A stretch of DNA of 62,098 nt from Oscillospiraceae bacterium (GTDB taxonomy: Bacteria > Bacillota > Clostridia > Oscillospirales > Ruminococcaceae), in NCBI GenBank assembly GCA_017555565.1, contig JAFZGF010000013.1, positions 1 through 62,098 of the forward strand. The letters run 5' to 3'. Shown here piece by piece: positions 27,376 through 31,423 of the stretch; position 1 is the first letter of the stretch, and every line of letters begins with the position of its first letter. A program made the position numbers and the translations under genes. The notes beneath the pieces are model-generated. The model saw only the letters and a program-made list of their open reading frames with translations. It had not been told where the DNA came from and made no database searches.

Positions 27376-30264
27376 TCAGTATTTTTTTGCAAATGCGGCC
27401 AGCATTGTCAGCCCCATAAAGCCAAAGCTCAACAGCAACAGACTCAACAGCGGCAGGTGCATAATTGTCTGTGACCAGGTGAACATCAGCGCAAGTACTG
27501 CCCCGATAACCACGCTGGCTATCTGAATCATACTACAGATATTTTCAGCACTTTTTGCACTTTCTGCACTGCAGAAACCAGCCACCAGTGATGGCAGACT
27601 GTCCAGATGAGCCATGCAGGCTTCGCTTTCAGGTGCATACTCTGTAAACTGTGCCAACAGAGCAGCTTCTTTCTGGTTGAGAACGCTTACAAAATCGCTT
27701 GGAATATCATAGATTTCTTCAATAAGATGTTCGTCGATATTGAAGTCTGTGGATGAAAGGATAATGCTTACGCCTTTGTCCATCAGCTTGTCCAGGTTTT
27801 CTTTTACAATGCTCTCTGCTCTGTAGCTGATTACAAACATACCAAACAGCTTACCGCCCACAGCCAGATATACAGGTTTGCGGCCCTGTTTTGTAAACTT
27901 GGCTTCCAGGCTTATCGGTGGCATATTTACATCATATTTTTCCATAAGTGTGCGGTTGCCAACGATAACACGGTTATTGTTTATCCAGGAAACATAACCC
28001 TGGCGTTCGATGTATTCACAGCTGTCAACCGGGTACAGAATATCTGTTTTGCCCTCGATAACATCCATAAACACAGGTCTCATAACATCACATTTTTCAA
28101 TCAAAACGCTGGCGGCATAGATAATGGCCAGGTCAATTCTTTCTTTTTCAAATGTTTTGATACCATGGAGAATTACTGTGCCGGTAGGGAACAGGTGCTT
28201 GGCGTCAAAGTTAACGTGTGTTGTTTTTGACAGCTGGTCGATGCCCTGCCATCCGTTTACCAGTGCGCCCACTTTTTCCAGGCTTTTCTGCATCAGTGCA
28301 CTTGGCACGCTGTTAACAAGTGTCTGTGACAATGGTATCTGCAATGCACTGGCACCTGCGGCACAGAATACTGCTGTGGCCAGGTTTTTGGAAAGTACAA
28401 GGCCCATAACAAAGCATACTGCCGTTACCAGCCAGCTTACTACAGCCAGTTTTCTTGCAGTGTAGTCACTGTTGTGTATTGAAAAACCTGCTTTTACAAA
28501 GTTTGTAATTGCGCCGGTTTTTCTTGATACCAGAATTTTTGGCACTTTTTCATCCAGAGTTCTTGCCAGACGCTTTACTGCGTCGTTGTCGTTTATAATA
28601 TAGCCTGCATTTATGCCGTCAGGCACATTTGCAAGTGTAAGATTTTTGATAATTGTTGTTGTGGCAATTTTCTTGCCCATTGCGTTAAAGCTCATTGCAA
28701 GGCATACAAAAGCGGCGAAAACAGTTACTTCGCTTACATTTACCTTGCCACTGAAAATTACCAGCACCAACAGCTGAACCATAGCCATTACTGCACCCAG
28801 GCTAATAAGACTGTCAGGGGCAGGTGCATTTTTTACAGATGCAAAGCCAGACAATACTGTAGGTAAAAATCCTACAAATGCAATGGCATATATCACTGCA
28901 CAGGCAATGTAGAACAGCATAGGCTGTGCGGCAGGTGAAATAAATGCAGGCACAGGCCAGGAAGCAGCTGCGGCCATATTCAGATATGAAAGAATGCCAC
29001 CGCATACAAAACCCAGCAGCATACGCATTGAAAGAGTCTGTCTGAATTCAAACAGTTCTTCTGTGATATCCACGCTTTCTTCATATGAACCATCGAAAAA
29101 TTCGCTCTGAACAATATATTCTTCAAATACTTCTTCGCTTTCTTCCTCGGCTTCAGGCGGGATTACCACTGTCTGCTGTGGTGTTGTGCTTTCTTCGGAT
29201 TCTTCTTCATCATCAAATTCCGGTATATAACCTGTCATCTGTTCGCTTGCCAGGGCGTCCTTTGCCTGGGCTTCGATTACTGCAGTGTAAATGTTATTGA
29301 TGATGTTGTTTTCAGAAATGACATTGTCTTTTTTGTCTTCTGGTGCAGGTTTTGTAATCTCTTTTGTTGTTTCTTCTTTAACTTTAACAGCAGGAATTTC
29401 TTTGGTGATTTCCTTTGTTTCTTCCTTGATGCTGATTTCAGATTTTTCTGCAGAAATTTCAGCTGTAGAAGCCTGCTGTGATTTTTTGCGCTGTTCCAGT
29501 ATGCGTTTTGCCAGGCTGTCAGGGTCTTTGTCGTCGCCCAACATAGCACTCAGGCTGTCAGCACGTTTTTTGGTTTCCCGTTTAAACACAGTTTTGGTGC
29601 TTGTATCATCAGCTTTTTCAACTGTTTTTACAGCAACTGCTGGCTGTGGTTCTTCTTTTGGAACATCCATTTCCAGCGTCCGGGCATATACATCGCCTGC
29701 AGTTTTTACAATAGGCATATCCTTTGTGATTTCATCTTTTCTGCGGGCTTTTTTCTTTCTCTTTTCTTCCTCTTCTTCCAGAGTTTCTATATTGAGAGAA
29801 AGGGAGTCTGTAATGTATTTTCTTTTGAAAAATCCGCCTTTTTTGCGTTTTACCTGCAATTCGCTGGTTTCTTCAGGGGATTTTGTTACGATAACAGACT
29901 GGGTGAAGAACTTCATAAAATTCTCATCTATGTAATCTTCACTTTTTTTGCTTACATACTCGGTGTCAGCAAACTGGGCATCCAGTTCTTCAGAAACAAA
30001 AGACTGCTGTTTTGGCTGCGGCTGAACAGGTTCGGCCTGTTTTTTCTCCGGCTGTTCTGTGTTGTTTATAAACCGTGACAGAGTAGCTTTGTCTTTTTCT
30101 GAAATCCGGCTTTGTTTCTGAGGTTCAGGGATATTCTGCCGTGGTGTTTCGTCGGCAGGTTTGTTTTCCGGCTCTATAACTGCTGTTGCAGTTGGAACAG
30201 TCTGTGTCTGTTGTCTGCGGAGCTTTATCTCCTCCAGAATTTTATCTATATCTGACTGTGGCAA
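27376..30264 (-). CDS. Degenerate P-type-ATPase-like membrane protein with long disordered N-terminus
   Basis: A 962-residue protein. Residues 1-400 are low complexity and charged (E, K, T, P, Q), starting with a short helix PQSDIDKILEEIK. From about 414 come four hydrophobic helices, a 70-residue loop, two helices, a 250-residue cytosolic part and two last helices: the layout of P1B-type metal ATPases. LVNSVPSALMQKSLEKVG and GALVNGWQGIDQLSK align with the segment before the phosphorylation site, but DKTGT is replaced by DAKHLFPTG (Asp about 687), TGES reads KTGA, and GDGxND is absent. It is probably not an ion pump. I start at TTG 30264, seven bases after AAAGGAGG. It follows rlmB by 33 bases. 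Confidence 0.82.
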   Translation of the reverse strand: MPQSDIDKILEEIKLRRQQTQTVPTATAVIEPENKPADETPRQNIPEPQKQSRISEKDKATLSRFINNTEQPEKKQAEPVQPQPKQQSFVSEELDAQFADTEYVSKKSEDYIDENFMKFFTQSVIVTKSPEETSELQVKRKKGGFFKRKYITDSLSLNIETLEEEEEKRKKKARRKDEITKDMPIVKTAGDVYARTLEMDVPKEEPQPAVAVKTVEKADDTSTKTVFKRETKKRADSLSAMLGDDKDPDSLAKRILEQRKKSQQASTAEISAEKSEISIKEETKEITKEIPAVKVKEETTKEITKPAPEDKKDNVISENNIINNIYTAVIEAQAKDALASEQMTGYIPEFDDEEESEESTTPQQTVVIPPEAEEESEEVFEEYIVQSEFFDGSYEESVDITEELFEFRQTLSMRMLLGFVCGGILSYLNMAAAASWPVPAFISPAAQPMLFYIACAVIYAIAFVGFLPTVLSGFASVKNAPAPDSLISLGAVMAMVQLLVLVIFSGKVNVSEVTVFAAFVCLAMSFNAMGKKIATTTIIKNLTLANVPDGINAGYIINDNDAVKRLARTLDEKVPKILVSRKTGAITNFVKAGFSIHNSDYTARKLAVVSWLVTAVCFVMGLVLSKNLATAVFCAAGASALQIPLSQTLVNSVPSALMQKSLEKVGALVNGWQGIDQLSKTTHVNFDAKHLFPTGTVILHGIKTFEKERIDLAIIYAASVLIEKCDVMRPVFMDVIEGKTDILYPVDSCEYIERQGYVSWINNNRVIVGNRTLMEKYDVNMPPISLEAKFTKQGRKPVYLAVGGKLFGMFVISYRAESIVKENLDKLMDKGVSIILSSTDFNIDEHLIEEIYDIPSDFVSVLNQKEAALLAQFTEYAPESEACMAHLDSLPSLVAGFCSAESAKSAENICSMIQIASVVIGAVLALMFTWSQTIMHLPLLSLLLLSFGFMGLTMLAAFAKKY

Positions 30265-30297
30265 ATCCAGCCCTCCTTTACTCAAGAATCAAATATC

Positions 30298-31053
30298 TTA
30301 TTTACCCAGATTTCTCTGACGGCTGATTTCGTACATGATAACGCCTGCTGCAACAGAAGCATTAAAGGAGTCAACACCTGAACCTGCGTTGTGCATTGGA
30401 ATGGATACAACGTCGTCACACAGGCTTTTTACCAGTGGCTGTACACCTTTGCCTTCACTGCCTACAACCAGGGCAATAGGGCCAGTAAGATTGTGTTTGT
30501 ACAGTGGCTGTGCGTTCATATCAGCAGAGTATACAAAAATATTGTTTTCTTTCAGATTTCTTACAGCCTGGGCAATGTTTGCCACTTTTGCAATTGGCAG
30601 TCTCATAGAAGCGCCTGCACTTGTTTTGTGCACTACGCTTGTTACAGAAACACCGCCGCGTTTTGGAATAATTACGCCGTGTGCACCCATCAGATATGCA
30701 CTTCTGATAATTGCACCCAGGTTGTGTGGGTCTTCGATGCCGTCACACAGAATGATAAATGGGCTTTCGCCTTTTTCTTCTGCATTTCTCAGAATCTGTG
30801 CAATGGAAACATATTCCACTGTGCTGGCGTATGCAGCGATACCCTGGTGGTTGTCACTGCCGCACATATTTTTCAGTTTTACAGGGTGTACTTTTTTTAC
30901 TACAGCACCGCATTCTTTTGCCAGGGCGATGTAGTAGTTCTGTGTGCTTGGGTTCAGGCTTTCGCTTATAAAAACGGTATCAACACCTTCTTTTTTCTTC
31001 AGAAGTTCTGTTACAGGGTTTTTACCGTAGATGAGTTCGTCATTGTTCTGCAT
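30298..31053 (-). CDS. rlmB: 23S rRNA (guanosine-2'-O-)-methyltransferase, RlmB/TrmH family
   Basis: A 251-residue SPOUT-class methyltransferase. The N-terminal substrate-binding domain (LIYGKNPVTELL, VDTVFISE) is followed by the three SPOUT motifs: DGIEDPHNLGAIIRSA, VVGSEGKGV and SIPMHNAGSGVDSFNASVAA, which form the knotted S-adenosylmethionine site. RlmB methylates G2251 of 23S rRNA in E. coli; TrmH relatives modify tRNA, so the exact target is assigned by similarity. It is directly upstream of the P-type-ATPase-like gene on the same strand. Confidence 0.93.
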   Translation of the reverse strand: MQNNDELIYGKNPVTELLKKKEGVDTVFISESLNPSTQNYYIALAKECGAVVKKVHPVKLKNMCGSDNHQGIAAYASTVEYVSIAQILRNAEEKGESPFIILCDGIEDPHNLGAIIRSAYLMGAHGVIIPKRGGVSVTSVVHKTSAGASMRLPIAKVANIAQAVRNLKENNIFVYSADMNAQPLYKHNLTGPIALVVGSEGKGVQPLVKSLCDDVVSIPMHNAGSGVDSFNASVAAGVIMYEISRQRNLGK

Positions 31054-31171: not shown

Positions 31172-31423
31172 TTAAAATAATACAATCAGTAATGTGGTGA
31201 CTATCGACAACATTCCCAGTAACAATGCAACTGCCTGCAGGTTTATTCTGATTCTGGGCATTCTGTCTCTTATTTTTACCTTTTGCAGAATCTCCTGGGC
31301 TTCTTTTCGGGTAGCAGCCACATCAATTTTCTGCTGGTGAGGGCTCAGGAACACCAGTATTTTCTCAATATTTTTATTTTCCGTGTCTTTTATTTCAATT
31401 ACACTGTGTTGCAGACCTTTCAT
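31172..31423 (-). CDS. Small single-pass membrane protein, unknown
   Basis: An 83-residue protein with a soluble, charged N-terminal part (about 60 residues; KNIEKILVFLSPHQQKID) and one C-terminal hydrophobic helix (AVALLLGMLSIVTTLLIVLF), as in tail-anchored proteins. TTTGGAGGGTCT precedes the ATG, a strong ribosome site. I do not recognise the family. It is upstream of rlmB on the same strand with 118 bases between, and divergent from the repeat array and glycosylase gene. Confidence 0.72.
   Translation of the reverse strand: MKGLQHSVIEIKDTENKNIEKILVFLSPHQQKIDVAATRKEAQEILQKVKIRDRMPRIRINLQAVALLLGMLSIVTTLLIVLF

Follow-up and report, generated by a model that had tools for sequence, protein, structure and literature searches.

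A P1B-ATPase-like protein family without catalytic motifs lies behind rlmB across Oscillospirales and may serve as a membrane scaffold or sensor

The stretch of DNA analyzed here (the window; 62,098 nucleotides, positions 1 to 62,098 of contig JAFZGF010000013.1, GenBank assembly GCA_017555565.1, from an Oscillospiraceae bacterium) carries on its minus strand, directly behind the rRNA methyltransferase gene rlmB, a gene whose product resembles P1B-type (CopA-type) ATPases and lacks their catalytic motifs. Its longest open frame begins at a TTG at 30285, but the TTG at 30264 is the likely start, because the Shine-Dalgarno-like sequence AAAGGAGGG (30279-30271) ends six bases ahead of it and would otherwise be translated, reading KGG in the 969-residue frame; KGG also stands at the corresponding place in several close relatives. 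A first-pass annotation, made from the letters of the window, had chosen this start and is borne out by AAAGGAGGG. Residue numbers below follow the 969-residue frame; subtracting 7 gives those of the likely 962-residue protein. The ~400 N-terminal residues are of low complexity, as that annotation held: residues 1-395 are rich in E, K, T, and S and contain no transmembrane (TM) segment by hydropathy, and the first cysteine is residue 428. Disorder of this region was judged from composition and hydropathy. Hydropathy and alignment give eight TM helices in a 4+2+2 layout, with a ninth, weaker hydropathy peak lying in the P domain. By its sequence, the protein is ~400 disordered-looking residues followed by an eight-TM, P1B-like core (Table 1), for which we use the P1B domain and helix names (MA, MB, M1, M2).

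Table 1. Features of the pseudo-P1B-ATPase gene and its neighbors in the window.
Feature	Position	Strand	Basis or remark
Pseudo-P1B-ATPase gene	27376..30264	minus	likely start TTG 30264, 962 aa
Longest open frame of this gene	27376-30285	minus	TTG 30285, 969 codons/aa
Shine-Dalgarno-like AAAGGAGGG	30271..30279	minus	5' of TTG 30264, read from sequence
N-terminal motif PQSDIDKILEEI, residues 9-20	30226..30261	minus	motif count in relatives; motif profile E 2.0e-4, own genome
Disordered-looking E/K/S/T-rich region, no TM, no Cys	29056..30225	minus	composition, hydropathy
Four TM helices, ~ MA, MB, M1, M2 of P1B ATPases	28672..29037	minus	hydropathy, hhalign
A-domain remnant, TGES half deleted	28471..28668	minus	~63-residue gap vs canonical P1B, hhalign
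Two TM helices, ~ M3-M4; IPL at CPC position	28312..28455	minus	hhalign, column counts
DAKHLFP replacing DKTGTLT	28186..28206	minus	hhalign, column counts
GIKTFEKERID, family-specific conserved stretch just past lost phosphorylation loop	28132..28164	minus	column counts
N-domain-like part; G763 and G776 kept, HP motif mostly lost	27796..28128	minus	hhalign, column counts
STDFNI replacing TGDN; Asp847 kept; ~32-residue GDGxND block beyond deleted	27736..27756	minus	hhalign, column counts
Last two TM helices, ~ M5-M6	27388..27546	minus	hydropathy, hhalign
rlmB, 23S rRNA Gm2251 methyltransferase	30298..31053	minus	TIGR00186 E 1.5e-66, above cut-off; conserved pair
Small 83-aa frame, hydrophobic C-terminus, upstream of rlmB	31172-31423	minus	present in 7-locus cluster incl. 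window

Pfam returned no meaningful match to the window protein and no P-type ATPase family above cut-off, and 2 of 22 distant relatives touched the E1-E2_ATPase family (best E = 0.0046). The NCBIfam model TIGR01525 for P1B-type ATPases matched at E = 3.9e-8, far below the family cut-off, and no P-type ATPase model in NCBIfam passed its own. A search of the Protein Data Bank (PDB) with the protein alone found Legionella CopA (3rfu, E = 1.5e-4); with a profile of 44 relatives, the best E value was 1.6e-12 and 10 of 10 matches were copper ATPases. When 83 non-redundant relatives were aligned with 31 canonical P1B ATPases in hhalign, the match scored 99.9 % over 511 columns (E = 1.8e-33, valid for that single comparison) and paired the TM helices from the first through the last. 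These profile matches, which uphold the P-type likeness proposed in the first-pass annotation, make the protein a homolog of P1B ATPases over the TM, P, and N domains, and the core presumably has a P-type fold. Canonical P-type ATPases are encoded in the same genome at two loci (L248 and L249), on contigs other than the window's; both match the pseudo-P1B family weakly (E = 1.2e-5 each) but show a full catalytic motif set, with TGES, CPC, DKTGT, an S.HP, TGD, and GDGxND.

We counted motifs in 120 distinct relatives, picked as matches without DKTGT (18 of 168 matches carried DKTGT and were excluded), and in 31 canonical ATPases. DKTGT, GDGxND, and CPC each occur in 0/120 relatives and 31/31 canonical ATPases, and TGES occurs in 0/120 versus 29/31. 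Since absence of DKTGT defined the set, genomic position behind rlmB serves as an independent check: all 73 long loci contain a DKTGT-free family frame. Looser patterns are rare as well, with S.HP anywhere in 6 relatives (31/31 canonical), the three letters TGE in 14, and CP[CHS] in 2. In the window protein, DAKHLFP (residues 694-700) replaces DKTGT, the CPC position reads IPL, and the N-terminal 410 residues contain no CxxC; in the hhalign alignment, a ~63-residue gap stands in place of the TGES half of the A domain, and the loss of GDGxND comes from a gap of ~32 residues that removes its block. The first-pass annotation was thus right that DKTGT is replaced and GDGxND missing, and their absence from all 120 relatives, taken with the check by position, shows a conserved loss rather than a single decayed copy; its reading of TGES as KTGA gives way to the A-domain gap. 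It had also called TGDN missing, and the window does read STDFN there, but the aspartate at the TGD position (Asp847) is kept in 117/120 relatives.

Other positions are also retained, including the N-domain glycines (Gly776 in 120/120, Gly763 in 118/120) and the M4 proline (106/120). The spacing from the phosphorylation loop to the TGD aspartate has a median of 149 residues in the family (range 98-188; measured by regular expression in 88/120 relatives) versus 150 in canonical ATPases (range 141-153, 31/31). Residues new to the family include Phe699 and Pro700 (110/120 each) and Lys710 (101/120, with Arg there in 14 more). The family has therefore lost the TGES half, the GDGxND block, DKTGT, and the CPC site and kept the eight TM helices, the N-domain glycines, and the TGD aspartate. 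Set beside P1B ATPases (TIGR01525), it shares profile homology, the 4+2+2 layout, these kept residues, and the spacing, but differs by the four lost motifs and two deleted segments and by an N-terminus that is long and disordered-looking, bears a terminal motif, and, without CxxC, replaces the metal-binding domains. The core is under strong purifying selection: the ratio of nonsynonymous to synonymous substitution rates (dN/dS) is 0.025-0.10 across 11 closely related pairs taken from the window and named loci, with the synonymous rate (dS) at ~1, near saturation, for the three window pairs. Order-wide motif loss under such selection agrees with the pseudo-enzyme reading in the first-pass annotation, which proposed a scaffold, sensor, or regulator that would be transcribed together with rlmB. 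We also observed an in-frame TGA in L025 (G058:C38) and frames broken near the N-terminus in L085 (G116:C10) and L077.

The named loci were gathered by a contig scan with 13 closer alignment rows and come from Oscillospiraceae/Ruminococcaceae such as Gemmiger, Fournierella, Anaerofilum, and Faecalibacterium; in a first search, 59 of 61 relatives matched the family. Across the window's order, which we take to be GTDB Oscillospirales, 196 of 197 sampled genomes matched a 20-row profile, 178 of them at E <= 1e-20. We re-searched 16 of these 178, the weakest scores included, and all gave long matches to a second profile built from distant families (split over two contigs in G108 and starting at profile position 73 in G087). 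Among the remaining 19 genomes, the second profile found full-length members in 14, and one more (G062) has rlmB, then the start of the gene with the motif FSVEDILAEF, then the contig end. By count, the gene is in 193/197 genomes, one of them this contig-end fragment. Three of the other four (G092, G149, and G126) yielded neither the family gene nor rlmB at E <= 1e-10, and G114 yielded no family gene and weak rlmB matches only; these absences may be assembly gaps or joint loss with rlmB. Among 295 phylum genomes and 141 class genomes outside the order, the highest-scoring single match was partial (62 bits), and 26 of 26 match loci examined were DKTGT-bearing ATPases. Restriction of the family to the order is supported by these searches, not proven, as they could miss members as divergent as those of family f13, one genome of which scored just 8.1e-5.

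The association with rlmB that the first-pass annotation had pointed to is constant. Of 73 loci (the window, 52 named loci, and 20 from distant families), 67 have the at least 600 bases of upstream sequence that make them testable, and every one of the 67 has rlmB upstream in the same orientation; a six-frame search places it upstream in 20/20 distant-family loci. In the window, the rlmB frame ends 12 bases ahead of TTG 30285 and 33 ahead of TTG 30264, and elsewhere the two frames overlap or lie <=150 bases apart, except in L077 (592), whose N-terminal frame seems broken. Outside the order, no family match was found within ~1.5 kb of rlmB in 15/15 loci of the same class, where the downstream genes include a YacP-type NYN protein (L306), SigH (L315), and an NrnA-like protein (L318). 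Because several of these loci have rlmB followed by YacP-type NYN or SigH, the gene appears to have been inserted beside rlmB in the window's order. By eye, the genes downstream of rlmB at other outside-order loci among L306-L319 and L321 resemble NYN or SigH. An elongation factor G (EF-G) paralog lies downstream in 16 of the 67 loci that have at least 3 kb of downstream sequence and is not constant; the one in L049 matches NF009381 above cut-off. EF-G-paralog loci are L045, L048, L049, L055, L058, L062, L063, L072, L074-L078, L151-L154, and L156. The 83-residue frame upstream of rlmB had no Pfam match.

Order-wide, the N-terminal motif has a consensus of roughly [FY]S[VLI]DDIL[AE]E. We searched 82 non-redundant members not cut at a locus edge with the regular expression [VLIM][DEN][DEKSTNQR]I[LI], which matched within the first 90 residues in 57, versus 0.86 expected by shuffling; each of the two following 90-residue segments gave 1/82. 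By eye, L017, L020, and L064 carry the motif or a close variant twice in tandem. In the sampled loci, 5,258 open frames gave 55 pattern matches, 52 of them the family itself; of the other three, L085 is a family N-terminus severed where its frame breaks, and the frame at 9106-9843 of L077 is probably likewise. A motif profile run against 35 genomes gave 11 non-family matches at E <= 0.05. Eight of these lie at one terminus (N or C) of membrane-type proteins, namely, three TagG/Wzm-like permeases (the permease part is present in two; L193 is the tail alone, similar to L173), three mutually alike membrane proteins, one LCP transferase, and one DUF3048 protein; the other three are internal to a MutS2-like protein, RNA polymerase alpha, and a helix-turn-helix regulator. 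At E of 0.05-0.2, a class B sortase and MltG appear among internal chance matches. The DDIL-type motif thus looks like a docking code common to envelope proteins of this order, whose motif-bearing tails are presumably cytoplasmic. N-terminal DDIL-type motifs were seen in L173, L174, L193, L290, L294, L180, and L201, which comprise TagG/Wzm-like permeases, an LCP transferase, a DUF3048 protein, a class B sortase, and MltG.

The mutually alike membrane proteins, seen in L179, L187, L195, and L198 (genomes G129, G170, G208, and G184), have a YDIDDILADI-like C-terminal tail. One of them, L195, weakly matches the NCBIfam model for SipW-type signal peptidase I (E = 5.7e-6, below cut-off); by eye, all four seem to lack the catalytic serine motif of such peptidases, so this may possibly be a second pseudoenzyme with a DDIL-type motif. 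The first-pass annotation had described the start of the window protein as a FliM-like short helix. The N-terminal peptide of FliM binds CheY, and the motif in the window's own genus does have an EIDALL-like look; however, it belongs to an order-wide consensus that differs and that some envelope proteins also carry, so there are nearer parallels than FliM, and no FliM family is among the protein's Pfam matches. We therefore set FliM/CheY docking aside.

Our preferred reading, held tentatively, is that this pump-derived pseudoenzyme serves in the membrane as a scaffold or sensor, with its tether docking on a hub that envelope proteins also use. Such a protein would not form a normal phosphoenzyme and would not pump; it would sit in the membrane with its long tether presenting the motif to a cytoplasmic hub. 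The same hub would bind tails on proteins that build the envelope (TagG/Wzm-like permeases, the LCP transferase, and others), the pseudo-pump would recruit or regulate envelope machinery at the membrane, and the pump-derived core might supply dimerization or lipid or ligand sensing. Pseudoenzyme scaffolds in general conserve a fold without catalytic residues, and the pseudo-P1B family would likewise keep its presumed fold without them; in the literature searched, we found no such scaffold built from a P-type ATPase. A GpsB-type hub docks envelope enzymes through their N-terminal tails, which is similar in that a cytoplasmic hub reads short tails of envelope enzymes, but the motif there is SRxxR-like rather than DDIL-type and the hub proposed here is hypothetical. 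More speculative is the extension that a copper pump became a permanent noncatalytic hub at the base of the order and that the DDIL code marks an unrecognized cytoplasmic organizer of envelope assembly.

Several observations weigh against this envelope scaffold or sensor. The strongest is the constant neighbor, rlmB, which encodes an rRNA enzyme and points to ribosomes rather than to the envelope. The docking partner is itself putative, and no candidate protein for it was identified. The regular expression for the motif was composed after the sequences had been viewed, and 25/82 relatives fail it, near-variants and broken frames included; MltG matches it in 4/30 cases, with L240 doubtful, and L236 has a near-variant. 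The motif profile picked out this protein alone in the window's own genome, and a genus-wide DNA pattern for the motif matched 9 of 16 genomes once each, always at this gene (a reversed control pattern also gave one match). With the motif confined to this protein in its own genome, the idea of a shared hub rests on related genera. Less probable, though to be taken seriously, is a functional pairing with rlmB in which the protein takes part, at the membrane, in the biogenesis of ribosomes or rRNA by anchoring or regulating either RlmB or ribosomes. The unbroken synteny, the near absence of rlmB from the four gene-less genomes, and the EF-G paralogs speak for this role; yet that joint absence may reflect assembly gaps, rlmB occurs without the gene behind it in all 15 same-class loci outside the order, and the terminal non-family motif matches fall on envelope-type membrane proteins, not on ribosome factors.

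Residual chemistry also stays as a rival, because many distant members read DxD[ILV]FP at the old phosphorylation loop. The catalytic column is Asp in 50/120 relatives, and with the retained TGD aspartate and near-canonical spacing this would suit a protein that is still an enzyme, either a phosphatase of the HAD type or a P-type ATPase whose chemistry is unusual. However, that column holds another residue in 70/120, S.HP is all but gone, and deletion has removed the segments of both GDGxND and TGES, and we judge such an enzyme improbable. The protein might instead be a channel that lets metals or other ions pass passively along the old transport path, or might use that path to sense metals, which could account for the eight TM helices and the M4 proline being kept; with CPC in no relative and no CxxC in the N-terminal region of the window protein, this seems quite improbable. 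The loss of the catalytic motifs would, by itself, fit a decaying copper-pump pseudogene, an explanation that we can scarcely credit given frames that are open order-wide with few exceptions, family-specific conserved residues, constant synteny, and low dN/dS; purifying selection excludes simple decay, and a decayed single copy of a copper pump is ruled out by order-wide conservation together with dN/dS.

In the literature searched, which lacked most subscription journals, we came across no account of a bacterial P-type ATPase branch that is conserved yet catalytically dead. P-type ATPases are among the best-studied pumps, and this dead branch is near-universal in the sampled genomes of the order, among whose named members are Faecalibacterium, Gemmiger, and other gut commensals related to them. 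The family has copper-pump ancestry and is tied to rlmB, and the window protein falls short of the Pfam and NCBIfam cut-offs for P-type ATPases. If the envelope scaffold or sensor reading is true, a pump fold would have been kept as a scaffold or sensor, and a tail code would be common to polysaccharide exporters, LCP transferases, and other envelope proteins. The family gives a way into how these bacteria organize their envelope, or into their ribosome biology.

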